DNA of 40,167 nucleotides from Alphaproteobacteria bacterium (GTDB lineage: Bacteria; Pseudomonadota; Alphaproteobacteria; Acetobacterales; Acetobacteraceae). Location: positions 1 through 40,167 of the forward strand of contig JAPLOI010000051.1 in NCBI GenBank assembly GCA_026400815.1. The letters run 5' to 3'. The notes below the pieces were generated by a model. The model was not told the origin of the DNA, did not search any database, and saw only the letters and a program-made list of their open reading frames with translations. Made by a program: the position numbers and the translations under genes. The stretch's first letter is position 1, and each line of letters opens with the position of its first letter. Shown here piece by piece: positions 21,596-37,838 of the stretch.

Positions 21596-21762
21596 GCTTC
21601 CTCCGCTGGTGCCATCGGCACTGCCTGTTGGTGGAAGCAGGCCACAGGCGCTGCGGCCGGTCAACGGCGGCGCGGCGTCCGGTATACAGGCCCGCAGCGC
21701 TGGTCTATGGCCTCAGGGGTGGCGATCGTTGCGCCCCCCGGCAGGCATGGCTCACGATACCG

Positions 21763-23172
21763 ATGGTTTTCAGCTCGATCACCTTCCTGTTCTACTTCCT
21801 GCCGGTGGTGCTGCTGCTTTACTTCGTGTTGCCGTGGCGCAATGCGGTGCTGCTCCTGGCCAGCCTGGCCTTCTATGCCTGGGGCGACCTGGCCCACCTG
21901 CCGATCCTTCTGGTGTACATCGTGGTGAACTGGGCGGCCGGCCTGGCCATGGCCGATCCGCGCCGCACGGGCATGGTGGCGGTGCTGGGCATCGCGGCCA
22001 ATCTCGGCCTGCTGCTGGTGTTCAAGTATGCCGGGTTCCTGGTGGCGCAGGTAAATGTGCTGGGCGCGCTGCCGGCCCTGCCGGTGCCACAGATCGCGCT
22101 GCCGCTGGGGATTTCGTTCTTCACCTTCCAGGGCATCTCCTACCTGATCGACATCTGGCGCGGCGACGTGAAGCCGCAGCGCAGCCTGGTGGCGTTCGGC
22201 ATGTACAAGGCGATGTTCCCGCAACTCATCGCCGGCCCCATCGTGCGCTACCGCATGATCGCGGGTCGCATCGCAGGGCGGCGAACCTCGATGCTGCGGT
22301 TCCGCATGGGCCTGCAGGTGTTCATCCTGGGCCTGGCGCAGAAGGTGTTGATCGCAGACACCGTGGCGCTGCCGGCGGACCGCATCTTCGCGCTCCCGGC
22401 CGGCGAGCTGACCCTGTCCACCTCATGGCTGGGGGCAGCCTGCTACACGATCCAGATCCTGTTCGACTTCGCCGGCTATTCCAACATGGCGATCGGGCTG
22501 GCGCACATGCTGGGCTTCCGGTTCCCCGCCAACTTCAACCGGCCCTACATCGCCCAGTCGGTCACCGAATTCTGGCGGCGCTGGCACATGAGCCTGTCCG
22601 GCTGGTTCCGCGACTATCTGTACATCCCGCTGGGCGGCAACCGCGGCTCGGCGGCGGCCACCTTCCGCAATCTGCTGCTGGTGTTCGTGCTGTGCGGGTT
22701 CTGGCATGGCGCGAGCTGGACCTTCCTGGCCTGGGGCCTGTGGCATGGCGCATTGCTGATCGCCGAGCGGGCCGGGCTGGGTGCCGCCGTGGCACGGCTA
22801 TGGCGCCCGCTGCGGCACGGCTACCTGGTGCTGATGGTGGTGCTGGGCTGGGTATTGTTCCGCGCCGACAGCCTGGCGCAGGCCGGGCATTTTTATGCGG
22901 CGATGGCCGGATTTGGCGGGGGCGACGGCCTGGATGCCCCAGCAGCCGCCTTCCTGGACAACCGCGTGGCGGCGGCGTTGCTGGCCGGCGCGGTGCTGTC
23001 CGCCTGCGCGATGCCGAAGGGGCGGGGCTGGGTGGTGCGCCCGGGCGGTGGCATGGCGTGGCAGGCCGGGCGCGATGCTGCCATGTATGCCGGGTTCCTC
23101 GCCTTGTTCCTGCTGGCCGTGACGGTGGTGAGCGGAACGACGTACAGCCCCTTCATCTACTACCGGTTCTGA
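21763..23172 (+). CDS. MBOAT-family O-acyltransferase (AlgI-like)
   Basis: An integral inner-membrane acyltransferase of 469 residues that carries acetyl groups across the membrane for polysaccharide O-acetylation. Many hydrophobic segments run through the chain. The MBOAT signature FWRRWHMSLSGWFRDYLYIPLGGNR (from 270) contains one key histidine (275), and CGFWHGASWTF has the second, His315. FTFQGISYLID and YFDFAGYS-like FDFAGYSNMAIG are typical of AlgI. The start ATG at 21763 gives MVFSSITFLFYFLP, the usual N-terminus. The gene is 10 bases before an AlgJ-like gene, so they form a pair. No alginate synthesis genes are here; the polymer acetylated is probably another exopolysaccharide. Confidence 0.93.
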   Translation: MVFSSITFLFYFLPVVLLLYFVLPWRNAVLLLASLAFYAWGDLAHLPILLVYIVVNWAAGLAMADPRRTGMVAVLGIAANLGLLLVFKYAGFLVAQVNVLGALPALPVPQIALPLGISFFTFQGISYLIDIWRGDVKPQRSLVAFGMYKAMFPQLIAGPIVRYRMIAGRIAGRRTSMLRFRMGLQVFILGLAQKVLIADTVALPADRIFALPAGELTLSTSWLGAACYTIQILFDFAGYSNMAIGLAHMLGFRFPANFNRPYIAQSVTEFWRRWHMSLSGWFRDYLYIPLGGNRGSAAATFRNLLLVFVLCGFWHGASWTFLAWGLWHGALLIAERAGLGAAVARLWRPLRHGYLVLMVVLGWVLFRADSLAQAGHFYAAMAGFGGGDGLDAPAAAFLDNRVAAALLAGAVLSACAMPKGRGWVVRPGGGMAWQAGRDAAMYAGFLALFLLAVTVVSGTTYSPFIYYRF

Positions 23173-23182
23173 GGGCAGGGCG

Positions 23183-24397
23183 ATGGAGAAACCGCTGGCC
23201 GCCCCCACCCGCCGGTTGCTGCAGCGCCTGTTCGTTCTTGCCGCGCTTGTGATCCTGGCAGCCCCTGCGGTGATGCAGTTCGCAATCCGCAGCGAGCCGC
23301 GGCGGGGCGAGAACCGCGCGCCGGCCGCCTTCCCGGCCGCGCCGGCCACGCTTGCCGCCCTGCCGGCCTGGACGGCGGGGGTGGATGCCTGGTTGCGGGA
23401 CCATTTCGGCCTGCGCAAGCGCTATCTGGATGCGCTGGACCAGATCCACTATCGGGTCTTCGGCAGCTTCAGTTCGCCGCAGAACCTGATGGGCCGCGAA
23501 GGCCGGATCTTCCTGGCGTCGCATGCGGCCGGGGAGGCCTATCGCAACAGCCTGATCCGCACCTCCTGCGGCGGGTTGGTTTCGGCGGCACGCCGCCAGG
23601 AGATCGCGCGATCCCTCGCCACGGTGCTGGAACGCAGTGATGCCGCCAGCCCGGCCCAGCATCTGGTTGTGCTGGTGCCCAGCGCGTCGGCGCTCTACCC
23701 CTCGCAACTGCCGGCGTGGCTGGAGCGCCAGTGCCGGGCCGCCTCGCCCCTGCTGGAGGGGATCGTCGCCGCGTTGCCCGATCCCCTGCGGGCCCGCGTG
23801 GTGAACCTGCATCCGCTGCTGGCCGCGCTTGATCCCGCAACCCCGGCGATCCCGCGCCAGAACTTCCACTGGGCCGGGATCGGCCCGCTGCGCAGTGCGG
23901 CATGGATCGCCGAGACGAAGCTGGAACGCCACGCCGCCTTCCCGATGCCAACACGCGTGGTGCGCGAGCGCTCCGACATCACCGGCTTCTTTCCCGGGGT
24001 TCGTATTGCGGGTGATGTGACCGTGGCGAATGCGTCCGAGGCCGGGGTGGTCGCCTGCATCGGCCCTCCCTGCTTCGAGGCCGCTTTGGGGGCCGACGTG
24101 GCACGGTTGCTGGAGGACCTGCGCCGCTACGAGGGGCCAGGCCAGGAGGGCCGTTTGCTGATGCTGACCGACAGCTTCGGGGCTTTTGTCGCCGAGGGGT
24201 TCACACCCTACTTCCGGGAGGTGGTGCAGGTGTCGCTGAACAACCTGCCGCAGCTTTCAGGCGAACAGCGTGCCCGCTTGCGTCGCGCGCTCATGCAGGA
24301 ATACCGGCCGGATGTGACGCTGTTCCTGGTGCACGACTACGCGGCCACCTATGCCTGGGACATCATGCTGCGGGACCTGCTGCCGCTGCAGCCGTAG
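23183..24397 (+). CDS. AlgJ/AlgX-like acetyltransferase partner with altered catalytic motif
   Basis: A 404-residue periplasmic SGNH-type protein anchored by an N-terminal helix (about 14-35). Known AlgJ-like proteins take acetyl groups from the MBOAT partner and transfer them to the polymer. Family marks: DAWLRDHFGLRKRYLDAL (68-85), the GKDGWLF-like GREGRIFLA (104-112), and the nucleophile region MLTDSFGAF, with Ser331. The DxH motif expected upstream of HW (as in DTHW/DHHW) reads N227-F-H229-W here, so the aspartate of the usual Ser-His-Asp triad appears replaced by asparagine. It is coupled to the AlgI-like gene. Whether it is fully active is therefore open. Confidence 0.82.
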   Translation: MEKPLAAPTRRLLQRLFVLAALVILAAPAVMQFAIRSEPRRGENRAPAAFPAAPATLAALPAWTAGVDAWLRDHFGLRKRYLDALDQIHYRVFGSFSSPQNLMGREGRIFLASHAAGEAYRNSLIRTSCGGLVSAARRQEIARSLATVLERSDAASPAQHLVVLVPSASALYPSQLPAWLERQCRAASPLLEGIVAALPDPLRARVVNLHPLLAALDPATPAIPRQNFHWAGIGPLRSAAWIAETKLERHAAFPMPTRVVRERSDITGFFPGVRIAGDVTVANASEAGVVACIGPPCFEAALGADVARLLEDLRRYEGPGQEGRLLMLTDSFGAFVAEGFTPYFREVVQVSLNNLPQLSGEQRARLRRALMQEYRPDVTLFLVHDYAATYAWDIMLRDLLPLQP

Positions 24398-24625
24398 CGG
24401 CCCCTATCCGAACAGCAGGAACCCGCCGGCCCGCAAATCGCTGCATTTTGCAGCAGAAACCAATCGACAATCGCAAAACTGTCACCCTATTCTCGTTTCA
24501 GATCCTGCAGCTTGACGATAGATGGCACGAGAATGCCGCGCAGGACCGGGGTAGAGGCACTTCAGGCGGCCCGCATCAGGCGTTGGCGTGTCGACGCGCA
24601 TTCAGCGCAAGGGGAAGGGTGGCTC
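24398..24625. promoter_or_regulatory. Promoter region of the phosphonate/ABC operon
   Basis: The 228 bases before the seven-gene operon. A 6-bp hairpin GCTGCA-TTT-TGCAGC (24440-24454) follows the AlgJ-like gene and may be its terminator. CTGTCAC at 24479-24485 matches a Pho-box half-site; the positions 11 bases on either side match only 3-4 of 7 bases, so PhoB control is a guess. AAGGGGAAGG near 24609-24618 is the ribosome site for the binding-protein gene. Confidence 0.35.
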
Positions 24626-26689
24626 ATGACCGAACGAACGATGGCCCGCGTGATGATTGCGGGCCTGGCATATGTCCTGGCGGCTGGCACCGCCTTCGCG
24701 CAAGGGGCCTGCCCCGCCGCGACCGTGGCCAACAGCGGTGGCCTGCGCGGGGCGTTCCCGCAGCAATTCGAGCTTTCCGAGTTCGAAAAGGCCGCCAACT
24801 GCAAGCTGGTCTTCAAGGCCAACCCCGAGATCGAGCAGCTCAATGCCCGCATCGCCGGCAACGGCGCGCTACCGCCGCTGGCCGAGCGCCTGCCGGCCGA
24901 GCCGCTGGTGGTGATGCCGTATGAGTCGGTCGGCCGCTACGGCGGCACCTTCGTCGGCCTGTCGGAAGCGCCGGAGGCCGGCACATCCGACCTGCTGTCG
25001 TTCCGGCATGTGAGCCTGGTGCGCTATTCCGACGACCTGGCCACCATCGTGCCGAACGTGGCCAAGGGCTGGGAGTGGAACAAGGATTTCACCGAGCTCA
25101 CCTTCTTCCTGCGCCGCGGGCACAAATGGTCCGACGGTGCCCCGTTCACCGCGGCCGACATCAAGTTCTGGCACGACGACCTGATGTTCGACGAGGCCAT
25201 CACCAAGAAGCCGAAGGACTATGTGCTGGTCGGCGGCAAGCCGATGACGGTGGAGGTGATCGACCCGCTGACGGTGAAGTTCAAGCTGCCGGCGCCCAAG
25301 CCCGGCCTGCTGGCCTTCTTCGCGTCGCACTATTCGCAGCCGTTCCAGCCGGTGCACTTCATCGGGCGCTTCCACCCGAAGCATAACCGGGATGCCGACA
25401 CGCTGGCCAAGTCGCTCGGCTTCGAGAACGGCTACGCGGCAGTGGCAGCCTATTACGCCAACTCCGACTGGAAGGACGTGCCGACGCCGATGCTCTCCCA
25501 CCCCGAGAAGGTGGCGAAACTGCCGAAGGCGACGGCGCCGACCCTGGAATCCTTCATCACCATCACCGAAACGGCGGATGGCCGGCGCTACGTGGCCAAC
25601 CCGTATTTCCACATGGTCGATACGGCCGGCAACCAGCTGCCCTATATCAGCCGGTTCAGCGAGGACTACGTGAAGGAGAACGAGGTGCGCCTGCTGAAGG
25701 CGATCAACGCCGAGTTCGACTACAAGAGCCAGTCGGTGCAGCTGCCGGCGGCCCCCATGCTGCTGGAGCACCGCCAGAAGGGCGACTACAGCGTGGACCT
25801 GCGGCCCACCATCTCCATGCCAACCTTTGGCTTCAACGTGACCTCGGCCGATCCGGAAAAGCGCAAGCTGTTCTCCGACCTGCGCTTCCGCCAGGCGATG
25901 TCGGTGGCGATCAACCGGGCCGAGATCAACGAGGTCGCCTTCTTCGGCCTGGGCGAGCCGCGCCAGTACACCGCGTTCAGCCCGCTGCCGCCCTTCGTGC
26001 CAGCGGCGCTGCAGGGCCACCTGATCCAGTATGACCCCGCCATGGCGCGCCGCCTGCTGGACGAGATCGGCATGCGCGACCGCGACAATGACGGCGCGCG
26101 CGAGCTGCCGAACGGCGCGCGGTTCACGCTGAACATCCAGTTCGCCACGCAGGGCATGCCCGCCCAGGTGGCCGAGCTGGTGGCGCAGCAGTGGAGTGCG
26201 GTGGGCGTTCGCACCACGATCAAGGAGATCACGCCGGATGAGCTGCGCTCCGCCCAGTCCGCCAACCAGCTGGACGTGGTGCCGTGGCTGAAGGGCCAGC
26301 CGCTGGCGCTGATCCAGGGCAATGCCGAGCTGTTCATGCCGCCGTTCGAGAACTACTTCGGCGGGCGCATCGGCATGCTGTGGGCCGAGTACGTGGAATC
26401 CAACGGCGCCAAGGGTGAGAAGCCGCCGGCCTACGTGGAGCAGATGATGGCCGACATCACCGCCTTCCAGTCCGCTGCCCCTGGCAGCAAGGACGCCAAC
26501 GATCTCGGCGCCCGCCTGGCCAAGACCATGACCGAGAGCCTGCTGTGGATCGGCACGGTGCAGGCGCCGGCGCCAGTGTATCACCGCAACCGGGTGAAGA
26601 ACTTCCCGGAGTTCAAGACCTGGTCGGCCGACTACTACCGCACCTACCCCTACCGGCCGCAGCAGTGGTTCCTGTCGGACGGGAAGTAA
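24626..26689 (+). CDS. Peptide/nickel-type ABC transporter substrate-binding protein
   Basis: Periplasmic solute-binding protein (SBP family 5, DppA/OppA-like), 687 residues, longer than classical members at about 530. Signal peptide MTERTMARVMIAGLAYVLAAGTAFA-Q, with cleavage expected after AFA. An N-terminal extension with two cysteines (about 25-90) precedes the family core. Core motifs: PNVAKGWEWNKDFTELTFFLRRGHKWSDGAPFTAADIKF and FSDLRFRQAMSVAINRAEIN. The start ATG at 24626 gives this signal peptide, with GGGGAAGG upstream. It is first in an operon with two permeases, two ATPases, a FAD oxidoreductase and PhnX. By context the ligand may be an aminophosphonate or a phosphonate-containing peptide; the family alone would suggest a peptide or similar small molecule. 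Confidence 0.9.
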   Translation: MTERTMARVMIAGLAYVLAAGTAFAQGACPAATVANSGGLRGAFPQQFELSEFEKAANCKLVFKANPEIEQLNARIAGNGALPPLAERLPAEPLVVMPYESVGRYGGTFVGLSEAPEAGTSDLLSFRHVSLVRYSDDLATIVPNVAKGWEWNKDFTELTFFLRRGHKWSDGAPFTAADIKFWHDDLMFDEAITKKPKDYVLVGGKPMTVEVIDPLTVKFKLPAPKPGLLAFFASHYSQPFQPVHFIGRFHPKHNRDADTLAKSLGFENGYAAVAAYYANSDWKDVPTPMLSHPEKVAKLPKATAPTLESFITITETADGRRYVANPYFHMVDTAGNQLPYISRFSEDYVKENEVRLLKAINAEFDYKSQSVQLPAAPMLLEHRQKGDYSVDLRPTISMPTFGFNVTSADPEKRKLFSDLRFRQAMSVAINRAEINEVAFFGLGEPRQYTAFSPLPPFVPAALQGHLIQYDPAMARRLLDEIGMRDRDNDGARELPNGARFTLNIQFATQGMPAQVAELVAQQWSAVGVRTTIKEITPDELRSAQSANQLDVVPWLKGQPLALIQGNAELFMPPFENYFGGRIGMLWAEYVESNGAKGEKPPAYVEQMMADITAFQSAAPGSKDANDLGARLAKTMTESLLWIGTVQAPAPVYHRNRVKNFPEFKTWSADYYRTYPYRPQQWFLSDGK

Positions 26690-26765
26690 CCGCCATCCGC
26701 GCCAGCCCGGCCATCCGCCCCAAGGCGGGTGACCGGGAGGCGCGGACGGAGGCCCGCCTCATCCC

Positions 26766-27776
26766 ATGATCCTGTTCCTGCGCTTCGCCGTGATGCGCGC
26801 CGCCATGGCGCTGATCACCCTGCTGACCGTCTCCTTCATCGTGTTCTCGTTGATGGCGCTGGTGCCGGCGAACTGCGCCGAGCGCTACCTGGCCTATAAG
26901 ACCACCCAGGGCGAGCAGATCACCATCGCCGACATCCGCGCCGAGGAGCGGCGGCTGGGGCTCGACAAGCCCTACGTGGAACGCTGGGTGCGCTGGGTCG
27001 GCAATGTGTTCATGGAAGGGGATTTCGGCGAATCCTGCATCCTGCGCGTGCGGGTGAGCCAGCTGGTGGGCGACAAGTTCCTGCTGAGCCTGGGCATCTG
27101 CGCGGCGGCGCTGATCTTCGCCTATGCCATTGCGCTGCCGGTGGGCATCTTCTCCGCCACCGCCTCCAGCCCGGTGCTGAACAACGTGCTGCGGCTGGTG
27201 TCCTATCTCGGCCTGGCGCTGCCGAACTTCCTGCTGGCGCTGATGATCATGTTGTTTTCCACGATCGTGTTCGGCGATTCCATGACCGGCCTGTTCTCCC
27301 GCGAGATGCGCGATGCGCCGTGGAGCTGGGACAAGGCGATGGATTTCCTGTCGCGCGCCTGGCTGCCGGTGTTCATCCTCGGCTGGTCCGCCACCGCATT
27401 CGCCATGCAATCGGTGCGCGCCCTGGTGTCGGACGAGTACGGCAAGCTGTACGTTATGGCGGCGCGGGCGCGGGGCGTGCACGGGGCGGCGCTGCTATGG
27501 CGCTATCCCGCGCGGCATGCGCTGGGGCCGATCATCAACTCGCTGGGCTTCGACCTCAACCGCGTGTTCAACCAGCTGCCGATCGTGGCGGTGATCCTGG
27601 TGCTGACGGAATCCGGTGCGTTGCTGCTGGAGGCGCTGGCGCGTTCGAACGACCAGCAGCTGGCCGGCGCCATCATCTTCCTGCTCACCGGCTCCATCGT
27701 GGCGCTGAACTTCCTCACCGATATCCTGCTCGCACTGGCCGATCCGCGCGTGCGCCGCAGCGTGATGGGGGGCTAG
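26766..27776 (+). CDS. ABC transporter permease, DppB-like
   Basis: Inner-membrane permease of 336 residues, family of DppB/OppB. It opens with a membrane helix (MALITLLTVSFIVFSLMALVPAN). A periplasmic loop contains ERRLGLDKPYVERWVRWVGNVFMEGDFGES, the usual 'G-D-F/L-G-S' element of DppB proteins. The membrane core has a docking loop region DEYGKLYVMAARARGVHGAALLWRYPARHALGPIIN. It starts 76 bases after the binding-protein gene and precedes the second permease by three bases. It presumably pairs with that permease to form the channel. Confidence 0.92.
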   Translation: MILFLRFAVMRAAMALITLLTVSFIVFSLMALVPANCAERYLAYKTTQGEQITIADIRAEERRLGLDKPYVERWVRWVGNVFMEGDFGESCILRVRVSQLVGDKFLLSLGICAAALIFAYAIALPVGIFSATASSPVLNNVLRLVSYLGLALPNFLLALMIMLFSTIVFGDSMTGLFSREMRDAPWSWDKAMDFLSRAWLPVFILGWSATAFAMQSVRALVSDEYGKLYVMAARARGVHGAALLWRYPARHALGPIINSLGFDLNRVFNQLPIVAVILVLTESGALLLEALARSNDQQLAGAIIFLLTGSIVALNFLTDILLALADPRVRRSVMGG

Positions 27777-27779
27777 GGC

Positions 27780-28958
27780 ATGGCGAGCGCCAGCGCGGCC
27801 CCGGATCGCAAATCCCGCGAGGCCTATTTCACCGCCAGCCAGGGCGAGCTGATCTGGGCGCGCTTCCGCCGCAACCGCGCCGCCATGGTGGCAGGCGCCG
27901 TGCTGGCCTTCATGGTGCTGGTGGGGCTGTTCGCGCCGTTCCTCTCCCCGTACGACCCCACCATCAACGGCCGCAACCGCGACTACATGAATGGCGCGCC
28001 GCAGATCCCGCGCTTCTGCGACCATAATGGCTGCTCCGCGCGGCCCTTCCTCTACACGCTGGAGCGCACCCGCTCGATCCAGACCAATTTCCGCTGGGTC
28101 ACCACGGTGAACATGGAGAAGCGGCGCTACGTGCAGTTCTTCGTGCAGGGCTGGGAATACCGGCTGCTGTCGCTGGATTTCGAGATCCCTGGCACAGAGC
28201 TGCGGGTGAACATCCCGGGCATTCCGTTCACCACCCATCTGTTCGGCGTGGACCAGGGCTCGATCCATTTGTTCGGCACCGACAGCGCCGGCAAGGACAT
28301 CTTCTCGCGCACGCTGCATGCGATCTGGACCTCGCTGGCGGTGGGCACGATCGGGGTGCTGATCGGCTTCGTGCTGGCGCTGGTGATCGGCGGCATCTCC
28401 GGCTATCGCGGCGGCTGGATCGACAGCGCGCTGCAGATGGCAACCGACGCGGTGCGCACCATCCCGGCGATTCCGCTGTTCATGGCGCTGGCCGCCTTCA
28501 TGCCGGCGGAATGGTCGCCGGAGCGGCGCTTCTTTTTCATCGCCACCATCCTGGGCCTGATCAGCTGGCCCACCTTGGCGCGCCGCGTACGCACCCACCT
28601 GCTGACGGAGCGCAACCAGGAATATGTGCTGGCGGCGCAACTGTGCGGGGCGAGTGGCGGGCATGTGGTCCGGCGCCATCTGCTGCCCAGCTTCACCAGC
28701 TACATCATCGTCGATCTCGTGATCTCGTTCCCCTACATGGTGCTGTCTGAAACCGCGTTGAGCTTCATCGGGCTGGGGCTGAAGGATCCGGTGAACTCGC
28801 TGGGCGTGATGCTGCAGAACGTGACGAGTGCGGACGTGCTGCTGAACTACCAGTGGTATTTCATCCCGGTGATCTTCTTCGTGGTGCTGGTGCTCGCCTT
28901 CGTGTTCGTGGGCGACGGGCTGCGCGACGCCGCGGACCCCTATTCGGACCACCGCTGA
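27780..28958 (+). CDS. ABC transporter permease, DppC-like
   Basis: Second inner-membrane permease, 392 residues, DppC/OppC-like. The N-terminus has RFRRNRAAMVAGAVLAFMVLVGLFAPFLSPYDP, the family's standard first helix and exit motif. An unusually long periplasmic insert (about 70-165) follows before HLFGTDSAGKDIFSRTLHAIWTSLAVG, the canonical DppC motif. The docking loop is AAQLCGASGGHVVRRHLLPSF. The insert makes it longer than classic DppC (about 300 residues), as in YejE-like proteins. Its stop overlaps the start of the first ATPase by one base (TGATG). Confidence 0.92.
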   Translation: MASASAAPDRKSREAYFTASQGELIWARFRRNRAAMVAGAVLAFMVLVGLFAPFLSPYDPTINGRNRDYMNGAPQIPRFCDHNGCSARPFLYTLERTRSIQTNFRWVTTVNMEKRRYVQFFVQGWEYRLLSLDFEIPGTELRVNIPGIPFTTHLFGVDQGSIHLFGTDSAGKDIFSRTLHAIWTSLAVGTIGVLIGFVLALVIGGISGYRGGWIDSALQMATDAVRTIPAIPLFMALAAFMPAEWSPERRFFFIATILGLISWPTLARRVRTHLLTERNQEYVLAAQLCGASGGHVVRRHLLPSFTSYIIVDLVISFPYMVLSETALSFIGLGLKDPVNSLGVMLQNVTSADVLLNYQWYFIPVIFFVVLVLAFVFVGDGLRDAADPYSDHR

Positions 28959-29971
28959 TGGCCCCCCCGCTTCCAGAGACGCCACTGCTCTCCGTGCAGG
29001 ATTTGTCCATCCGCTTCCGCACCGATGAGGGGCTGATCACGGCGGTGGACAACGTCTCGTTCGACATCGCGCCCGGCGAGGTGCTGGGGCTGGTGGGCGA
29101 AAGCGGCTCCGGCAAGTCCGTCACCGCCAAGGCGCTGATGCGGCTCAACCCCGGCAACACCGTCTATGCGCCGGAAAGCCGGATCGTGCTGCACGACGAG
29201 GGGCGGGCGATCGACGTGCTGGCGTTGAAGCGCGCGCGCGACATGATGGTGGTGCGCGGCGGGCGCGTTTCGATGATCTTCCAGGAGCCGATGGCCAGCT
29301 TCGCCCCGGCGCTGACCATCGGCCAACAGATGGTGGAGCAGTTGCTGCTGCACACCGACATGACGAAGCGCCAGGCGCGCACGCATGCCATCGACATGCT
29401 GGCGCGGGTGGGCATCTCCGACCCCGCGGCGCGGATCGACCAATACGCTTTTGAGTTCTCCGGCGGCATGCGCCAGCGCGCCATGATCGCCATGGCGCTG
29501 TCCACACGCCCGCGCCTGCTGATCGCGGACGAACCGACCACGGCGCTGGACGTGACGATCCAGGCCCAGGTGCTGGATTTGATGCGCGGGCTGGTGGCCG
29601 AATACGGCATGGCGATCCTGTTCATCACCCACGATCTCGGCGTGATCGCGCAGATGGCCGACCGGGTGGCGGTGATGTACCTCGGCCGCGTGGCCGAAAC
29701 CGGCGCGGTGCGCCAGGTGATCCGCACGCCCGTCCACCCCTACACCGCGGACCTGCTGAACGCGCTGCCCAACGTGAACGACCCCGACGCGCCGCTGACG
29801 CCGGTGGCCGGTGACATCCCGAGCCCGCTGGACCGCCCCACGGGCTGCGTGTTCCATACGCGCTGCCCGCGGATGATCCCCGGCACCTGCGATGCCGCCG
29901 TGCCCTCGGCGCACGTGGTGGCGCCGGGCCACATGGCCGCCTGCTTCGCGCTGGCGGGTGTGCCGGCATGA
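28958..29971 (+). CDS. ABC transporter ATPase, DppD-like
   Basis: First ATP-binding subunit, 337 residues from the ATG at 28958. Walker A GESGSGKS, Q-loop FQEPMASFAP, signature FSGGMRQRAMIAMAL, Walker B LLIADEPTTALD and H-loop FITHDLGV are complete. The C-terminal oligopeptide/dipeptide domain follows (TPVHPYTADLLNALPNV), including the cysteine pattern GCVFHTRCPRMIPGTC, which in this family can hold an iron-sulfur cluster. Translational coupling to the permease before it and an ATGA overlap with the ATPase after it. Confidence 0.93.
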   Translation: MAPPLPETPLLSVQDLSIRFRTDEGLITAVDNVSFDIAPGEVLGLVGESGSGKSVTAKALMRLNPGNTVYAPESRIVLHDEGRAIDVLALKRARDMMVVRGGRVSMIFQEPMASFAPALTIGQQMVEQLLLHTDMTKRQARTHAIDMLARVGISDPAARIDQYAFEFSGGMRQRAMIAMALSTRPRLLIADEPTTALDVTIQAQVLDLMRGLVAEYGMAILFITHDLGVIAQMADRVAVMYLGRVAETGAVRQVIRTPVHPYTADLLNALPNVNDPDAPLTPVAGDIPSPLDRPTGCVFHTRCPRMIPGTCDAAVPSAHVVAPGHMAACFALAGVPA

Positions 29972-31008
29972 GCACCGCCCCGCACCCGATCCATGTCTCG
30001 CTCGATGGGCTGTCGGTGCACTACGCACTCGGCCGCACGCTGTTCGGCACGCCGCCCACGGTGCGGGCCGTTGATGGCGTATCGCTCGACATTCCGCGCA
30101 ATTCCTTCTTCGGCCTGGTCGGCGAAAGCGGGTCCGGCAAGACCACGCTGGGCCGCGCCATCCTGCGCGCCGCCCCGGTCTCCGCCGGCCGCATCACCTA
30201 CCGCGACGCGGAGGTGGAGGTGGATGTTGGCGCGCTGGACAAGGCCGGGCTGCGCGACTACCGCACCCGCGCCCAGCTGATCTTCCAGGACCCCTACGCG
30301 GCCCTCAGCCCGCGCATGACGGTGCGCGACATCATCGCCGAGCCGCTGGAGGTGATGAAGATCACGAAGTCGCGCGAGGAAACCGACGAGCGGGTGCGCG
30401 ACATCGCCGCGCGCTGCCGGCTGAACCTGGAGCATCTGCGCCGCTTCCCGCACGCGTTTTCTGGCGGGCAGCGCCAGCGCATTTCCATCGCCCGTGCGCT
30501 CGCCGCCCGGCCGCGCTTCGTGGTGGCCGATGAGAGCGTGGCGGCGCTGGACGTTTCGATCCAGGCCGACATCCTGAACCTGCTGAAGACGCTGCGCGAG
30601 GAACTCGGCCTCACCATCCTGTTCATCAGCCACGATCTGAGCGTGGTGGCGCATGTGTGCGACATGGTGGCGGTGATGTATCTCGGCGCCATCGTGGAGG
30701 TAGGCCCCTCGCGCCGGCTCTTCGCCCAGCCGCGCCACCCCTATACCGGCGCGCTGTTCTCGGCGATCCCGTCGCTGGACCCGGATGACCGCGGCCGGGC
30801 GCAGCGGCTGGAAGGCGAGATCCCCAGCCCCGCCAACGTGCCGCCCGGCTGCCGCTTCCACACACGCTGCCCCTTCGTGCAGGATCGCTGCCGCAGCGAG
30901 GTGCCGGCCTGGCGCGAAGTGGCGCCGCAGCAGCACGTGGCCTGCCATTTCAGCGAGGAACTGGCACCCCGCCTGACCCGCACCCGCCAACCGGACCCCG
31001 CCGCATGA
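29968..31008 (+). CDS. ABC transporter ATPase, DppF-like
   Basis: Second ATP-binding subunit, 346 residues, heterodimer partner of the previous one. Walker A GESGSGKT, FQDPYAALSPRMTV, signature FSGGQRQRISIARAL, Walker B VVADESVAALD, FISHDLSVV. The Walker B reads DES rather than the usual DEP, a common tolerated change; the catalytic glutamate is kept. The C-terminal domain has GCRFHTRCPFVQDRC. It overlaps both neighbours by four bases (ATGA), binding transport to the catabolic genes that follow in the same transcript. Confidence 0.93.
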   Translation: MSTAPHPIHVSLDGLSVHYALGRTLFGTPPTVRAVDGVSLDIPRNSFFGLVGESGSGKTTLGRAILRAAPVSAGRITYRDAEVEVDVGALDKAGLRDYRTRAQLIFQDPYAALSPRMTVRDIIAEPLEVMKITKSREETDERVRDIAARCRLNLEHLRRFPHAFSGGQRQRISIARALAARPRFVVADESVAALDVSIQADILNLLKTLREELGLTILFISHDLSVVAHVCDMVAVMYLGAIVEVGPSRRLFAQPRHPYTGALFSAIPSLDPDDRGRAQRLEGEIPSPANVPPGCRFHTRCPFVQDRCRSEVPAWREVAPQQHVACHFSEELAPRLTRTRQPDPAA

Positions 31009-32150
31009 CCGACACACCCTTTGATATCGCCATTGTCGGCGCCGGCATCGTCGGCCTCGGCCACGCCCTGGCGGCGCTGCGCCATGGGCTGCGCGTGGCG
31101 GTGATCGACCGGGAGGCGCGGGCCGCCGGGGCCTCGGTGCGCAATTTCGGCTTCGTCACGGTCACCGGCCAGCAGGAAGGGATCACCTGGCGCCGGGCGC
31201 GGAGGGCGCGGGATGTGTGGGCGGAGGTGGCGCCACAGGCCGGCATCGCCGTGCACCAGCGCGGGCTGCTGATGGTGGCGCGCCGGGCGGAGGCGATGGT
31301 GGTGCTGGAGGATTTCGCCGCCGGCCCGATGGGGGCTGGCTGCCGGCTGATGGGCGCGCAAGGCCTGCGCGCGGAGGCGCCGATGCTGGCGCCGGGGCTG
31401 CTGGGGGCGCTGCACTCGTCGCACGAATTGCGCGTGGAGAGCCGCGATGCCATCCCGCGCCTCACGGCTTGGCTCGCCGGGCAGGGCGTGGCCTTCCTGC
31501 CGCGCACCGCGGTGCGGGGGGTGGAGCAGGGGGCGGTGCATCATGCCGCCGGCACCGTGCGCGCCCGCCATGTGGTGGTGTGCCCGGGGCCGGATCTTGT
31601 CACGCTCTATCCCGAGGTGATGGCAAGGCGCGGCATCACGCTGTGCAAGCTGCACATGCTGCGCCTGGCTGATCCCGGTGTGCGCTTCCCCGCGCCGCTG
31701 ATGAGCGATCTCGGCCTGGTGCGCTATCTCGGCTACCAGGGCCCGCGCCTGCCGGCGCTGCGGGTGCGGCTGGAGGCGGAGCAAGCGGCGCATCTGGCGG
31801 ACGGCATCCATTTGATCGCCGTGCAGCACGAGGATGGCTCGCTGGTGGTGGGCGACAGCCATCACTACGACCCCACGCCCGATCCGTTCCAGCCGCGCGC
31901 GGTGGATGACCGCATGCTGGAGGAATACACCGCCGTCACCGGCCTCGCCGCGCCGGAGGTGATCGAGCGCTGGATCGGCATCTATCCCTCCGGGCCCGAC
32001 ACGGCATTCACGGAGGCGGTGGCCGAGGGCGTGCGGCTGGTGATGGTCACCTCCGGCACCGGCGCCAGCACGGCGTTCGCGATTGGCGAGGAGACCATCG
32101 CCGACCTGCTCGGCGCGCCGGCGCCTTCCCATGCGATGGAGGCAGCGTGA
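31005..32150 (+). CDS. FAD-dependent oxidoreductase of phosphonate loci (TIGR03364-like)
   Basis: A 381-residue DAO-fold flavoenzyme. FAD-binding VGAGIVGLGHALAALRHGLRVAVIDRE (11-37) and the following ASVRNFGFVTVTGQQ match a subgroup repeatedly found beside phosphonatase genes. The C-terminal MVTSGTGASTAFAIGEE is the second FAD contact. Known: flavoenzymes from such loci have been reported to oxidise 2-aminoethylphosphonate or its N-methyl derivatives to phosphonoacetaldehyde. Inferred: this enzyme makes phosphonoacetaldehyde for the PhnX gene directly after it, standing in for the PhnW transaminase, which is absent here. It overlaps the ATPase before it by four bases and PhnX by one. Confidence 0.85.
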   Translation: MTDTPFDIAIVGAGIVGLGHALAALRHGLRVAVIDREARAAGASVRNFGFVTVTGQQEGITWRRARRARDVWAEVAPQAGIAVHQRGLLMVARRAEAMVVLEDFAAGPMGAGCRLMGAQGLRAEAPMLAPGLLGALHSSHELRVESRDAIPRLTAWLAGQGVAFLPRTAVRGVEQGAVHHAAGTVRARHVVVCPGPDLVTLYPEVMARRGITLCKLHMLRLADPGVRFPAPLMSDLGLVRYLGYQGPRLPALRVRLEAEQAAHLADGIHLIAVQHEDGSLVVGDSHHYDPTPDPFQPRAVDDRMLEEYTAVTGLAAPEVIERWIGIYPSGPDTAFTEAVAEGVRLVMVTSGTGASTAFAIGEETIADLLGAPAPSHAMEAA

Positions 32151-32968
32151 TGCTCAAGGCCCTGGTTCTGGATTGGGCCGGCACCGTGGTGGACCACGGC
32201 AGCCGCGCGCCGATGGGTGCCTTCGTGCGCGCCTTCGCCCATTTCGGCGTGACGGTGAGCATCGCCGATGCACGCGGGCCCATGGGCATGGCCAAGCGCG
32301 ACCACATCGCCACCCTGATGGCCCTGCCGCATGTCGCTGCCGCCTGGCAGGAAGCCCAGGGCAGCGCGCCCGACGAGGCGGCGATCGACAAGCTGCTGGC
32401 GGTGTTCGAGCCGATGAACATCGCCGCCATCCGCGACCATGCCGATATCATCCCCGGCGCGCTGGAAGCCATCGCCTGGGCGCGGGCGCGCGGCATGAAG
32501 ATCGGCTCCACCACCGGCTACACCCGCCCGATCATGGCGGAGCTGATGCCGCTGGCCGCCGCCGCCGGCTACGCGCCGGATCACGTGGTGTGCGCCGGCG
32601 ATCTGGCGGAGGGGCGGCCGGGGCCGCTGATGATGTGGCACGCGATGTCCGCGCTGGGCATCTGGCCCGCGCATACCGTGGTGAAGGTGGACGATACGCC
32701 GCCCGGCATCGGGGAGGGCGTGAATGCCGGCACCTGGACCATCGGCCTCGCGCTGACCGGCAATATCTGCGGCCTGTCTGCCGCCGAGCTGGCGGTGCTG
32801 CCGGAGGCGGAACGCGCGCCGGTGCGGGCGCGGGCGGAGGCGGAGATGCGCGCGGCGGGGGCGGACATGGTGATCGACAGCATCGCCGACCTGCCGAAGG
32901 CCCTGGAGGCAATCGAGGTGCTGCTGGCGCGCGGCGAACGGCCGGGGGGCTCGTACCAAGCCTCGTAG
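32150..32968 (+). CDS. phnX: Phosphonoacetaldehyde hydrolase (phosphonatase)
   Basis: HAD-superfamily C-P hydrolase turning phosphonoacetaldehyde into acetaldehyde and phosphate. From the ATG at 32150 it has 272 residues. Motif I is DWAGTVVDHGS (nucleophile Asp8). ARGPMGMAKRDH places the Schiff-base lysine at Lys49, the hallmark of true phosphonatases. Motif II is STTGYTRPIM, motif III falls in EGRPGPLMM, and motif IV is VKVDDTPPGIGEGVNAGTWTIG. A GTG one codon earlier (32147) is also possible. It is last in the seven-gene operon and is followed by a GC-rich three-hairpin element. Confidence 0.93.
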   Translation: MLKALVLDWAGTVVDHGSRAPMGAFVRAFAHFGVTVSIADARGPMGMAKRDHIATLMALPHVAAAWQEAQGSAPDEAAIDKLLAVFEPMNIAAIRDHADIIPGALEAIAWARARGMKIGSTTGYTRPIMAELMPLAAAAGYAPDHVVCAGDLAEGRPGPLMMWHAMSALGIWPAHTVVKVDDTPPGIGEGVNAGTWTIGLALTGNICGLSAAELAVLPEAERAPVRARAEAEMRAAGADMVIDSIADLPKALEAIEVLLARGERPGGSYQAS

Positions 32969-32989: not shown

Positions 32990-33090
32990 GGAAGGCCAGG
33001 GCTCTGCCCTGGACCCGCAAAGGGCCGGCGGCCCTTTGATCCCAGTAATTTGAAAGGATGAGGTCCAGGGGCAAAGCCCCTGGCCTTGCC
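32990..33090. repeat. GC-rich three-hairpin element between convergent genes
   Basis: Left hairpin CCAGGGC-TCT-GCCCTGG (32996-33012), core hairpin AAAGGGCC-GGC-GGCCCTTT (33019-33037), right hairpin CCAGGGGC-AAA-GCCCCTGG (33065-33083). The outer arms are near-identical inverted copies of each other (AGGCCAGGG... against ...CCCTGGCCTT). Sequence is unrelated to the AT-rich repeats, but the layout is the same. It lies between PhnX and the leftward hydrolase gene and is likely a bidirectional terminator or REP-like repeat. Confidence 0.85.
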
Positions 33091-33113: not shown

Positions 33114-34373
33114 CTACCGGTTGCGGCTGGTGATGTCGGCCAGCACGGGCAGCAGGTAGCTGGCGAACACGGCTGGGTTTTCGGCGAAGGGGAAGTGGCC
33201 GATTCCGTGCATGGGGATGAACTGGGCGCCGGGGATTTTGGCCGCCGTCGCCTCGCTCATCTCCATGGTGCAGGAGTAGTCGTATTCGCCGGTCATCAGG
33301 AACAGCGGGCATTTCGTGGTGTCAATGCCGGCGACGCGGCTGCGGGCGTCCCATTCGCCGGAGTAGAAGTGGATGTCGCCGAAGAACACGCCGGGCCCGC
33401 CCTGGCTGTAGTGCCACAGCACCTCGGCGGCGCATTCGGCGGGTGCATCGGGCGCCATCAGCCCGTGGATCCATTCCGGCACGAACAATGCCTGGTTCAC
33501 CTGCGGGTGGAACGCCCAGGGGGTTTGGCGGCCCTGGATGTTGTCCGTTGCTTCGCAGGCGATGATGGCGCGGAAGGCCTCGGGGTGGCGGTGGGCGAGT
33601 TCCAGGCAGATCTCGCCGGACATGGAGGCGCCAAGCACGATGGGGCGCTTGAGGCCGGCGGCGGCCACGAAGCCCATGATGGTTTCCACGTAGCGATCCG
33701 TGGTCATGCGCCAGGAGCCCGGCAGCGCGCCATCGGGCGGCATGGAACGGCCGTGCCAAGGGAGGTCGAAGGGCACCAGGCGATGGGTGCGGGTGATGCG
33801 TTCATCGGCCATCAGGCGGTGGAACTGGCGGCCGTCGCTGCCGGCGGTGTGCAGGCAGAGGATGTCCTGACCCTCGCCTGCCCATTCATGGAAGATGTCG
33901 TGGCGCTGGCCGGCGATCTGCACCGGCACGGTGCCGCCCTGCGGCAGGGCGCGCGGGGTGGCCACGGGGGGCCGCAGGCTGTTGGGGGCCGGCAGGGCGT
34001 TTCCGAGGGCGAGCCACTTGCCCAGCTCCAGCACGCGGCGCACCAGGTGGCAGTTCTGGGCGAAGGTGAGCATGTCCCCTTCCAGCGTCGCCTCCGGCAC
34101 GCGGGCGAGCATGGCCAGGATCACGTGGTGGTGGCGCGGCGGCATGGGCTGCAGGAACTTCGCCCACACCGAAGCGGGGGCAGCGAAGGTGAAGGCGGGG
34201 GTGCCCGGGGTGGCGCTACGGCCCTCGCGGAAGCCGAAGCGGGCTTCGTGGGTGTCGCAGCGTATGGCGAAATCCACCGCCCAGGGGCCGGCCAGCGTTG
34301 CCAGCACCGCATCGCCGGCGCACGCCGCCTGCCAGCGCGCCACGAACCCGTTCCAGTCATCCAGCGGCCACAT
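33114..34373 (-). CDS. Alpha/beta hydrolase with N-terminal SCP2-like domain
   Basis: A 419-residue protein. Residues about 1-125 look like an SCP2/sterol-carrier-type domain (WAVDFAIRCDTHEARFGFREG, EATLEGDMLTFAQNCHLVRRVLELGKW); this part is a tentative call. Residues about 150-419 are an alpha/beta hydrolase: oxyanion region LHTAGSDGRQFH, PFDLPWHGRS, nucleophile elbow GASMSG with Ser250, acid Asp365 in MTGEYDYS, and His393 in GIGHFPF. No signal peptide, so probably cytoplasmic. Its ATG (34373) follows the permease stop by two bases, so it is the last gene of the second transporter operon and may cleave the imported compound. Confidence 0.87.
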   Translation of the reverse strand: MWPLDDWNGFVARWQAACAGDAVLATLAGPWAVDFAIRCDTHEARFGFREGRSATPGTPAFTFAAPASVWAKFLQPMPPRHHHVILAMLARVPEATLEGDMLTFAQNCHLVRRVLELGKWLALGNALPAPNSLRPPVATPRALPQGGTVPVQIAGQRHDIFHEWAGEGQDILCLHTAGSDGRQFHRLMADERITRTHRLVPFDLPWHGRSMPPDGALPGSWRMTTDRYVETIMGFVAAAGLKRPIVLGASMSGEICLELAHRHPEAFRAIIACEATDNIQGRQTPWAFHPQVNQALFVPEWIHGLMAPDAPAECAAEVLWHYSQGGPGVFFGDIHFYSGEWDARSRVAGIDTTKCPLFLMTGEYDYSCTMEMSEATAAKIPGAQFIPMHGIGHFPFAENPAVFASYLLPVLADITSRNR

Positions 34374-34375
34374 GG

Positions 34376-35206
34376 TTATCGCACCGTGTTGCGCATGCGC
34401 GGATCGAGCGCATCGCGCAGCCCGTCGCCCAGCAGGTTGAGCCCCAGCACGATCATTGCGATCGCCACGCCGGGGGAAAGCGCGATCCACGGCGCCTCGA
34501 TCATCGTATCGCGCCCGTCGGCGATGATGGCGCCGAGCGAGGGCCGCGGCGGCGGCGGGCCGACGCCCACGAAGCTCAGCACCGCCTCGGCCAGGATTGC
34601 CACGGCGAAGATGTAGGTTTGCTGCACCATCAGCGGCGCCATGGTGGCCGGGATGATGTGGCGGCGCAGGATGCGCCCGGTCTTGGCCCCCACCGCGCGG
34701 GCGGCCTCCACATAGTCCTGCGCGCGCGCCACCAGCACGGCGCCGCGCATCACGCGCGCGGTGCGCGGGGAATAGGCCACCGTGAGCGCCACCACCGCGG
34801 TCATCTCGGAAGGCCCCAGCGTCACGGCCAGCGCGATGGCCAGCAGGATGCCGGGGAAGGCCATCAGCCCATCCATCACCCGCATCAGCCAGGCATCCGC
34901 CTTGGGCCACCAGCCGGCGACCAGCCCCACCACCCCGCCGATCAGGCCGGAGGCGATCACCACCATCAGCCCGATGCGCAGCGAAACCCGCGCGCCGTGC
35001 AGGATGCGGCTGAGCACGTCGCGCCCGAAGCGGTCCGTGCCCAGCAGGTAGATGTCGTTGGGTTCGCCCAGGCGGTAGCGGAAATTGTTCTTCACCGGGT
35101 CGAACGGCGCCAGGACATCGGCGAACACGGCGCAGAACGCCACGGCGCCGACCAGCACCAGGCCGATCGCAAAGGACCGGCGCTTCAGGATGGCGGGCAT
35201 CTTCAT
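34376..35206 (-). CDS. ABC transporter permease, DppC-like (second system)
   Basis: A 276-residue inner-membrane permease of normal DppC size. It shows the first helix RRSFAIGLVLVGAVAFCAVFADVLAPFDPVKNNFRYRLGEPN, then YLLGTDRFGRDVLSRILHGARVSLRIG, and the docking loop AARAVGAKTGRILRRHIIPATMAP. The C-terminus GLNLLGDGLRDALDPRMRN is typical. The start overlaps the preceding permease stop by four bases. It belongs with the binding protein and DppB-like permease upstream; no ATPase is encoded in this operon. Confidence 0.92.
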   Translation of the reverse strand: MKMPAILKRRSFAIGLVLVGAVAFCAVFADVLAPFDPVKNNFRYRLGEPNDIYLLGTDRFGRDVLSRILHGARVSLRIGLMVVIASGLIGGVVGLVAGWWPKADAWLMRVMDGLMAFPGILLAIALAVTLGPSEMTAVVALTVAYSPRTARVMRGAVLVARAQDYVEAARAVGAKTGRILRRHIIPATMAPLMVQQTYIFAVAILAEAVLSFVGVGPPPPRPSLGAIIADGRDTMIEAPWIALSPGVAIAMIVLGLNLLGDGLRDALDPRMRNTVR

Positions 35207-36150
35207 CGGGCTTCCCGCAGCCTGGGATCAACCCACAGATAGAGCAGGTCCACGATCAGGTTCACCGCCACGAACACGAAGGCGGTCAGCAGCAGCCCGC
35301 CCTGGATCACCGGCCAATCGCGCCGCAGCACCGCGCCGATCACCAGGCGCCCCACGCCGGGCAGCGAGAACACCTGCTCGATCACCAGCGCGCCGCCCAG
35401 CGCGATGCCGAAGGAAATGCCCGCCACCGTCAGGATCGGCACCGCGGCGGCCGACAGCACGTGGCGCGCGAACACCCGCGGCTCCGCCAGCCCCTTGGCG
35501 CGCGCGGTGCGGATGAAGTCGCTGTTGGAAACCTCCAGCGCGGCGGAACGCGTCATGCGGGCCAGCGGCCCCATCTGGTTCAGCGCCAGCACGCCGGCCG
35601 GCATGGCGATGGAGCGCAGCCAGCCCACGGGGTCGTCGCTGAACGGAATCCAGCCGCCGCTGGGCAGCCACTGCAGCTTCACCGCCAGCACCCAGATCAG
35701 CAGCAGGCCGAGCCAGAAATCCGGCAGCGAGAGCCCCATCAGCGCCCCGCCCATGGCCGCCTGGTCCTGCCATTGATGCGCCTTGGCCGCCGCCAGCAGC
35801 CCCAGTGGAATGCCCACCAGGGCGGCCATCAGCAGCGCAATCCCGGCGAGCGAGAGCGTAACCGGCAGCCGCTCCAGGATCGCCGAGCCGACCGACTGGT
35901 TGAGCAGGATGGATTTGCCCAAATCGCCCTGCAGCAGCCCGCCATACCAGTGCAGCATCCGCTCCAGCGGGGGCTGGTTGAGCCCCAGCTGGGCACGGAT
36001 CTGCTCCACCTCCACCCGGTTGGCGGAAGGCCCGGCCATCTCGGCGGCGATATCCCCGGGCACCAGCAGCGTCAGCCCGAAGCTGATCAGGGAGACCACG
36101 AACAGCACCGGCACGGCCGCCAACAGGCGGACGACGATCAGTCTCAGCAC
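35203..36150 (-). CDS. ABC transporter permease, DppB-like (second system)
   Basis: A 315-residue inner-membrane permease. N-terminal helix LLAAVPVLFVVSLISFGLTLLVPGD is followed by QIRAQLGLNQPPLERMLHWYGGLLQGDLGKSI, the standard DppB periplasmic motif. The docking loop is FIRTARAKGLAEPRVFARHVLSAAAVPILT, and IEQVFSLPGVGRLVIGAVLRRDWPVIQG is the family's late signature. It starts 27 bases after the binding-protein gene stop and overlaps the next permease by four bases. Confidence 0.93.
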   Translation of the reverse strand: MLRLIVVRLLAAVPVLFVVSLISFGLTLLVPGDIAAEMAGPSANRVEVEQIRAQLGLNQPPLERMLHWYGGLLQGDLGKSILLNQSVGSAILERLPVTLSLAGIALLMAALVGIPLGLLAAAKAHQWQDQAAMGGALMGLSLPDFWLGLLLIWVLAVKLQWLPSGGWIPFSDDPVGWLRSIAMPAGVLALNQMGPLARMTRSAALEVSNSDFIRTARAKGLAEPRVFARHVLSAAAVPILTVAGISFGIALGGALVIEQVFSLPGVGRLVIGAVLRRDWPVIQGGLLLTAFVFVAVNLIVDLLYLWVDPRLREAR

Positions 36151-36177
36151 ATCACTTGGCCTGGCAGGTCAGGGCGA

Positions 36178-37725: not shown

Positions 37726-37747
37726 CGGTGTATCCCCCTGTTCAGCC

Positions 37748-37753
37748 ATTATA
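37748..37753 (-). promoter_or_regulatory. Candidate -10 box for the second transporter operon
   Basis: On the minus strand a perfect TATAAT stands 22 bases before the ATG of the binding-protein gene, rare in such GC-rich DNA. A good -35 hexamer at 17 bases spacing is not visible (CTGAAG lies 19 bases away), so the assignment is moderate. The divergent aldolase gene on the other side shares the same CAGGGGG ribosome site. Confidence 0.4.
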
Positions 37754-37838
37754 AGACCTGATGCTTGACCGGCTTCAGGGCGCTTGGCAAGAACCTTGTG
37801 TCGCGCCACGATATCGCGAACATCACAGGGGGTTCCCG

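Follow-up and report, generated by a model that had tools for sequence, protein, structure and literature searches.

The locus described here raises the question of why a complete ABC importer of the peptide-transport type should share an operon with genes that release phosphate from a phosphonate, and what such an importer might carry. It lies in a stretch of 40,167 nt from an Alphaproteobacteria bacterium (Acetobacteraceae), in the following called the window. ORF checks and searches with family profiles found all seven reading frames on one strand between positions 24626 and 32968 (Table 1), and their families match the predicted set of a binding protein, two permeases, two ATPases, an FAD-dependent oxidoreductase and PhnX. 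The tight packing of the original prediction was likewise confirmed when gaps and overlaps were recomputed, with five of the six junctions overlapping or at most 3 nt apart. The gene for the solute-binding protein (SBP) is separated from permease B by 76 nt, a gap of 3 nt follows between B and C, and the last four junctions overlap by 4 nt each, or by 1 nt with the ATG starts (D at 28958, PhnX at 32150). A scan of the region for promoters and terminators stayed at chance level.

Table 1 Features of the importer–phosphonatase operon and its flanks in the window.
Feature	Position	Strand	Evidence and remarks
Pho-box-like site, weak, CTGTCACCCTATTCTCGT	24479..24496	+	4 mismatches to the consensus as we take it
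SBP, large family-5 solute-binding protein, 687 aa	24626..26689	+	PF00496, 181.3 bits; AF2 model
Permease B, OppB/DppB type, 336 aa	26766..27776	+	PF00528, 68.8 bits; PF19300, 35.8
Permease C, OppC/DppC type, 392 aa	27780..28958	+	PF00528, 89.8; PF12911 (OppC_N), 57.4
ATPase D, OppD/DppD type; ATG 28958 shares 1 nt with the stop of C	28958..29971	+	PF00005 and PF08352
ATPase F, OppF/DppF type	29968..31008	+	PF00005 and PF08352
FAD-dependent oxidoreductase, TIGR03364/PbfD type	31005..32150	+	TIGR03364, 394.3 bits (cut-off 285.1)
PhnX, phosphonoacetaldehyde hydrolase; start GTG 32147 or ATG 32150	32147..32968	+	TIGR01422, 334.6 (cut-off 220)
Possible terminator hairpin 3′ of PhnX	33065..33083	+	4 such sites in the region, chance mean 3.2

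The last two genes encode the catabolic pair. PhnX belongs to the phosphonatases by its TIGR01422 score, and an identity as the "PhnX-like" family TIGR03351 was rejected (88.1 bits, cut-off 218.9). It can be aligned with PDB 3iru across 263 residues and keeps the LDWAGT and PMG..K motifs; the nucleophilic Asp and the Schiff-base Lys of PhnX are presumably Asp12 and Lys53 in B. cereus numbering. The flavoenzyme is a member of TIGR03364, the family under which A. baumannii PbfD1 is annotated, and, according to the available sections of the same study, PbfD oxidises N-methyl-aminoethylphosphonate (N-methyl-AEP) and AEP, so that an FAD enzyme with PhnX and without PhnW is published chemistry (PMC10590968). 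PhnW is indeed absent from the operon, but not from the genome: a copy on another contig (G000:C7:63788-64861) passes two curated PhnW cut-offs (NF010006, 434.4 against 296; TIGR03301, 397.8 against 360.8) and falls just below that of TIGR02326 (395.8 bits against 400.8). The absence of C-P lyase was rejected as well, with PhnJ located at C31, and the genome further encodes AepX-like and PhnD-like binding proteins.

A general co-occurrence of the FAD-PhnX pair with this importer was rejected, as none of 17 other TIGR03364 genes over the cut-off had the importer in the surroundings fetched. Of the loci examined, the window and L057 alone have the pair beside the importer; in L057, an 83% relative, the pair is upstream of the importer, so that the gene order differs and the linkage is kept. 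In two other genomes (L224, L225), FAD enzyme, PhnX and a member of the phosphonate monoester hydrolase (PMH) family, discussed below, form one gene run. The genes upstream in L224, considered as a possible sugar importer, turned out to encode glycosyltransferases, a methyltransferase and a PF13557 protein.

By Pfam, the importer consists of an SBP of family 5, two OppB/C permeases and two oligo_HPY ATPases, and is thus a member of the Opp/Dpp class. All five transport proteins scored below the curated cut-offs of the listed peptide, nickel and glutathione importer families; in the case of the ATPases, this comparison with equivalogs took in the top 25 of 186 families. The SBP reached 40.9 for DppA (cut-off 1005) and 99.7 for Opp4A (cut-off 650). 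PF00496 was its sole Pfam match, and neither PF12974 nor TIGR03261, representing the PhnD and PhnS/AepX types, was among its profile matches. In a Foldseek search with the AF2 model (pLDDT 89.2), the highest TM-score was obtained for the pectin/galacturonate binder 7veu (TMq 0.80), followed by raffinose binders, and the lowest E-value among solved structures for 5ipw, deposited as oligopeptide-binding OppA (TMq 0.59). Judged by TM-score, the modelled SBP is nearest to sugar and uronate binders.

To characterize the importer clade, we used the best 80 of 529 confirmed loci (59–98% identity) and called neighbours by tblastn with score thresholds that we set. At least 19 kb was available for 47 of the 80; many others lie on short contigs, so that missing neighbours are partly contig ends. 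As controls served 20 loci of a sister SBP clade with ~30% identity, obtained from 22 by omitting G224, G025 and G228 (short contigs) and adding G123. The original prediction named a clade occurring mostly without PhnX as evidence against itself, and this is what we found: PhnX is near the importer in just six of these best 80 of 529 loci, so that this counter-evidence, taken literally, applies. The wider claim of the prediction, that a Dpp/Opp-class importer belongs with phosphonate catabolism, is supported. A PhnX, PhnW, PhnA, PhnY or PbfA gene was detected nearby in 21 of the best 80 loci, and a PMH-family gene, the commonest non-transporter neighbour, in 39, two of which (L077, L087) carry the arylsulfatase-type His explained below. 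Together, a PMH-family and/or AEP/HAEP-catabolic gene accompanies 45 of the best 80 loci and 0 of the 20 sister-clade loci (Fisher, 1.2e-6, a P value that overstates independence because the loci are related). Read from gene neighbourhoods, the clade is associated broadly with genes for phosphonates and phosphonate esters, beyond PhnX.

Representative neighbours scored above the curated cut-offs for PhnW, PhnY, PhnA, PbfA and PhnX, and PhnW over its cut-off is encoded in 39 of 47 genomes with the transporter versus 61 of 337 genomes of the class. On the tree, we counted 19 changes for phn and 23 for PMH genes, with absences at contig ends counted as absences. The calculation of PMH proximity took 27/38; a strict count gives 26/38, L087 being the difference. 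In the close relatives with long flanks L059-L061 and L063 (Nisaea, Kiloniellales, Rhodovibrionaceae), the importer has no phn gene and no PMH in its vicinity. The clade occurs mostly in marine-named lineages. A Na/Pi cotransporter-family gene lies near seven loci, and a GDPD-family gene near L050, a relative at 47% identity.

The neighbouring "sulfatase" is of the PMH type, with 653 bits to 4upk. As a published diagnostic rule separating PMHs from arylsulfatases we used the position flanking the nucleophile, where Asp or Thr instead of His indicates a PMH. Among 42 PMH-family neighbours, 39 have Asp, two have His (L077, L087) and one, a fragment (L064), has a gap; these 42 are the cluster members with the Cys motif, including five from more distant loci (L049, L051-L054), three without the motif having been dropped. 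In most neighbours, the likely start lies ~50 residues before the Cys, a stretch in which a signal peptide would hardly fit, and by these predicted starts the PMH-family neighbours seem to lack signal peptides. The window operon itself contains no PMH. Homologues are located at C17 and C47 of the same genome, the best of them (C17, L135/L139), of the PehA type, on another contig next to a different peptide-type transporter. To our knowledge, the natural substrate of PMHs is unsettled. The available text on these enzymes describes hydrolysis of phosphonate monoesters and phosphodiesters alike (PMC5649143).

Regulation by phosphate was approached through sites upstream of the importer genes. We scored them against CTGTCAT-N4-CTGTCAT, which we take to be the Pho-box consensus. 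Sites with at most three mismatches occur in 19 of 78 upstream regions of the clade (best 80 of 529 loci), whereas none was present in 20 controls or in 80 internal stretches. The window site, shared with L055 and L056, is weak, its level of four mismatches being reached by one of the 20 controls too. Its zero-mismatch match to a second pattern is no evidence, because that pattern was fitted to the window's own site.

The importer probably admits phosphorus bound in phosphonate conjugates by a route not recognised before, because the pump is joined to enzymes that release phosphate from AEP and its relatives repeatedly lie beside genes for cutting phosphonate esters or breaking phosphonates. 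The sequences show the gene identities, the operon layout and the clade-wide association, while we infer the substrate, the direction of transport, the role of the unlinked PMH and the phosphate regulation. We consider it evenly balanced whether the operon serves to take up O-esterified AEP and to release its phosphate. The phosphonate ester that the SBP binds and the products of the five transport genes bring into the cytoplasm would most likely be AEP or N-methyl-AEP linked to a sugar or to glycerol and derived from phosphonoglycans or phosphonolipids. There a PMH would cut the ester; many relatives have such a gene close to the transporter genes, and here the PehA-type enzyme may serve. The (N-methyl-)AEP set free would be oxidised by the PbfD-type flavoenzyme to phosphonoacetaldehyde, which PhnX would split into acetaldehyde and phosphate. 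Against this reading stand the missing PMH of the window operon, the long-flanked close relatives with no phn or PMH gene beside the importer, the 17 importer-free surroundings of TIGR03364 genes, the genomes of L083 and L132 with importer and PMH but no PhnW or PhnX over the cut-off, the E-value to 5ipw, the two neighbours with the arylsulfatase-type His and the weak Pho box of the window. Among the bulkier substrates first envisaged, a conjugate fits best, given the PMH neighbours and the TM-scores to glycan binders, whereas no pointer to a phosphonopeptide was found. For the clade as a whole our proposal is more tentative: it may form an undescribed, phosphate-regulated ABC importer family that takes up AEP, N-methyl-AEP or HAEP as intact phosphonate esters, linked to glycans or to glycerol, and feeds cytoplasmic PMHs, this being their physiological role, with the window lineage having wired the importer to the PhnW-free PbfD-PhnX branch.

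An importer for small free aminophosphonates (AEP, N-methyl-AEP, HAEP), for which the Opp/Dpp scaffold was recruited and the PMH is an independent member of a phosphorus-scavenging island, would agree with FAD-PhnX, PhnWX and PhnWAY working on free forms of AEP, as the sections at hand describe (PMC10590968), and with six of the best 80 of 529 loci having phn/pbf genes and no PMH-family gene in reach. We think it unlikely, considering the size of the SBP, its model nearest to sugar binders by TM-score, the prevalence of PMH neighbours and the AepX-like and PhnD-like proteins that the genome already possesses. Transport of phosphodiesters, such as glycerophosphodiesters or phospho-sugars, with phosphonate genes clustering there only as shared phosphate-starvation genes, is in our estimate rather improbable. 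PMHs split phosphodiesters too (PMC5649143, available text), L083 and L132 combine importer and PMH in genomes without PhnW or PhnX over the cut-off, and the Pho-box-like sites and the GDPD and Na/Pi cotransporter genes would suit it; yet the window importer is translationally joined to FAD-PhnX, useful only for aminophosphonates, and PhnW is frequent in the transporter genomes.

A true oligopeptide or phosphonopeptide importer, joined to PhnX by happenstance, could explain the PF00496/OppBCDF architecture and the E-value to 5ipw, but is very improbable in view of the top TM-scores to sugar binders, the phosphonate/PMH association and the lack of a peptidase among the commonest annotated neighbour clusters of the clade. 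Chance or lineage-specific juxtaposition, to which the 17 importer-free TIGR03364 loci and the restriction of the linkage to the window and L057 might point, deserves hardly any credence, as it is disfavoured by the neighbour enrichment, the survival of the linkage through the gene-order change in L057 and the scattered links of the clade to other phn sets.

Compared with known systems, the new part is the transporter. As in the window, PbfD and PhnX families stand side by side in a cluster without phnW (PMC10590968), a paper whose main text has "transporter" only in the reference list and mentions neither oligopeptide nor dipeptide. In the accessible part of a report on Achromobacter phosphonatase operons, a TIGR03364-type HpnW likewise lies beside PhnX, but PhnW is present and the importer is PhnSTU instead of an Opp/Dpp one (PMC11203657). 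PhnCDE, PhnSTUV, AepXVW, AepSTU and AepP have a link to the uptake or catabolism of AEP, and those of the ABC type use a binding protein; in the consulted excerpts they represent other transporter families, in contrast to the family-5 SBP and OppBCDF with two ATPases of the window (PMC10574752, PMC8316502). The importer shares its ABC class with the peptide importers Opp, Dpp, Gsi and Yej and with the glycan binders SPH1118, MelB and chitin-oligomer SBPs, and differs from Opp/Dpp in its scores and its gene partners. The literature search yielded no description of such an operon, no importer assigned to surface-phosphonate esters and no link of PMHs to this clade. Hydrolysis of polysaccharide phosphonate esters of the APase/PEH type has been postulated, in the text available without such an importer (PMC5649143), and partial texts of two further sources state that bacterial phosphonate biosynthesis is mostly devoted to cell-surface decoration (PMC6697681) and that N-methyl-AEP is found on glycans (PMC6994554). 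The neighbours of the clade belong with the PMHs of PDB 2vqr, 2w8s and 4upk by sequence and diagnostic residue. The clade is a concrete candidate for joining the uptake of surface phosphonate esters to PMH function; if this is true, cytoplasmic PMHs would gain a physiological role through imported phosphonate esters.

The seven genes of the operon share one direction, and the original prediction of an importer, a FAD flavoenzyme and PhnX in this order was borne out, with families and junctions as stated. The gene for the solute-binding protein (SBP) is separated by 76 nt from permease B, a 3 nt gap follows, and the final four junctions are overlaps. The active-site motifs of PhnX, whose residues presumably hold the catalytic roles, are preserved in an alignment to PDB 3iru. 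The gene pair just upstream resembles genes for polysaccharide O-acetylation, its putative role. No ATPase gene was found among the ORFs inspected in the second peptide-type set, which might use the ATPases of the operon under study.

Coordinates of the operon, its flanking regions and further loci (SBP, solute-binding protein; PMH, phosphonate monoester hydrolase)
Location	Coordinates	Strand	Feature	Bits (cut-off)
Window	24626-32968	plus	Operon: 1, family-5 SBP; 2-3, OppB- and OppC-type permeases; 4-5, two oligo_HPY ATPases; 6, TIGR03364 flavoenzyme; 7, PhnX	gene 6, 394.3 (285.1); gene 7, 334.6 (220)
Window	21628-24397		Upstream of operon: DltB/MBOAT-like gene (TIGR04091) below cut-off; partner gene without NCBIfam match	160.5 (375)
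Window	33114-37755	minus	Second peptide-type set, convergent to operon: SBP (PF00496), permease B, permease-C-like ORF, alpha/beta hydrolase	
L045, window genome (G000:C7, contig end)	9365-16937		DHDPS-family gene, Dpp-type importer SBP-B-C-D-F, PhnW ~150 nt past it	
L139, window genome (G000:C17)	9092-17763		PehA-type PMH ~2 kb from another transporter of the peptide type (SBP, D, F, B, C)	
L057, 83% relative	10001-12061		SBP gene with in-frame stop at its codon 87 in the assembly	
L077, importer locus	8897-10627		PMH-family neighbour, arylsulfatase-type His, not Asp	
L087, importer locus	16395-18101		PMH-family neighbour, arylsulfatase-type His, not Asp	
L224, no importer	5477-9725		FAD-PhnX-PMH run	
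L225, no importer	1275-5534		FAD-PhnX-PMH run	

Relatives of the SBP in 289 genomes of the class showed identities of 70, 56, 47 and 41-42%. The five transport genes kept their order in the loci extracted for seven relatives, and neither PhnX nor the FAD gene lay in these stretches. From a scan of named genomes we took the best 80 of 529 loci (SBP identity 59-98%) and called neighbours by tblastn with thresholds set by ourselves. The expected co-occurrence of this SBP subfamily with PhnX was not general, with PhnX near 6 of these best 80. PhnW was found in 15/80, PhnY in 13/80, PhnA in 10/80, PbfA in 15/80 and a PMH-family gene in 39/80 of the same best 80 of 529. Among the 47 of them spanning at least 19 kb, 16 had phn/pbf genes, 27 PMH and 31 either. 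Neither kind occurred around 20 control loci of a sister SBP clade with ~30% identity (Fisher: either kind, 45 of the best 80 of 529 versus 0/20, 1.2e-6; at least one phn/pbf gene, 21/80 versus 0/20, 0.006). Representative neighbours exceeded curated cut-offs (PbfA 672.5 vs 525, PhnY 755.9 vs 635.65, PhnA 493.6 vs 407.55, PhnW 469.4 vs 400.8), as did six PhnX proteins (276.6-319.5 vs 220). One LysR regulator nearby was closest to the aminoethylphosphonate (AEP)-associated TIGR03339, under its cut-off (279.1 vs 341.1).

At genome level, PhnW over cut-off was present in 39/47 importer genomes versus 61/337 class genomes (p 1.5e-18, a statistic that ignores kinship and habitat). Five of the eight importer genomes without it had PhnX over cut-off, including both Nisaea genomes; in one of these (G107), FAD and PhnX are adjacent on a contig other than the importer's (L211). 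Neither PhnW nor PhnX exceeded its cut-off in three of the 47 (genomes of L061, L083 and L132). A PMH-family protein (E<=1e-60) was encoded in 38/47, and for 26 of the 38 its gene fell inside the importer's 10 kb flanks.

The PMH-family gene, whose product matches PMHs of solved structure (653 bits to 4upk), was the most frequent non-transporter partner among the best 80 of 529 loci, and most members carry the formylglycine Cys motif. According to PMC5488252, a diagnostic residue is His in arylsulfatases and Asp/Thr in PMHs; here it was Asp in 39/42, His in 2/42 and a gap in 1/42. Because likely start codons lie only ~50 residues ahead of the Cys in most members, a signal peptide has little room. 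We take this PMH to be cytoplasmic; therefore, its substrate would need whole import.

ARRANGEMENTS heads our listing of gene arrangements around the importer. FAD-PhnX lies downstream of the importer in the window and upstream in L057, where both frames are open beside the interrupted SBP gene, either a MAG error or a pseudogene. PhnW-PhnX precedes the importer in L067, L076 and L117 and, with PbfA, in L074 and L095; PhnW-PhnA-PhnY does so in L101 and, with PbfA, in L108. A divergent LysR/PhnW-PhnA-PhnY set, with PMH immediately before the SBP, occurs in L097, L107, L120, L123, L126-L128 and L131, accompanied by PbfA in all except L123. A quick SBP tree of the best 80 of 529 required at least 19 changes for the phn trait and 23 for PMH; truncated contigs and kinship among loci inflate or blur these counts.

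PhnW, absent from the operon as originally noted, is encoded in the window genome on a different contig. It adjoins another Dpp-type importer (L045), a second peptide-type importer beside an AEP gene. This genome also encodes C-P lyase PhnJ, PF12974 phosphonate-binding-family proteins, an AepX-like protein slightly below cut-off (371.1 vs 392.75) and a single PhnX above cut-off. Its PMH (827 bits to 2vqr) is not linked to the operon under study.

TIGR03364 exceeded its cut-off in 18/337 class genomes, the window genome counted. PhnX lay within 13 of the 17 other extracted stretches, the importer in 0/17. The PMH of L224 matches solved structures of its family; in L224 and L225, two genomes of one family group, an enoyl-CoA hydratase-family gene follows the run.

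The AF2 model of the SBP (39-row alignment, pLDDT 89.2) had its top Foldseek TM-score with 7veu, the pectin/galacturonate binder SPH1118 (TMq 0.80). Other SPH1118 forms aside, MelB (raffinose, melibiose, galactinol) followed with 0.67-0.68, chitin-oligomer binders reached ~0.6 and DppA (1dpp) 0.57; the lowest E-value belonged to 5ipw, deposited as OppA (0.59). Pho-box-like sites with at most 3 mismatches lay upstream of the SBP in 19/78 loci, 18 of 19 on the coding strand, versus 0/20 control upstreams and 0/80 internal stretches; the window site has 4 mismatches.

N-methyl-AEP and AEP occur on glycans (PMC6994554), cell surfaces are decorated with AEP (PMC6697681), and marine polysaccharides contain phosphonate esters, for which APase/PEH-type hydrolysis was postulated (PMC5649143). 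We favour the prediction that the importer would bring in O-esterified AEP, PMH would split the ester in the cytoplasm, the FAD enzyme would oxidise the product to phosphonoacetaldehyde and PhnX would cleave the latter, yielding phosphate. Free aminophosphonates and phosphodiesters are both live rivals as the imported substrate.

In the open-access literature searched, we found no Opp/Dpp-type importer linked to PhnX, PhnW or PMH, and the main text of the review PMC10574752 has no word starting with "peptide". A PbfD-type FAD enzyme paired with PhnX in clusters lacking PhnW is already known (PMC10590968). PMC11203657 describes for Achromobacter a TIGR03364-type HpnW beside PhnX, together with PhnW and a PhnSTU importer. 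The system described here is predicted to employ a phosphonate importer from a different ABC class, which probably serves conjugates.
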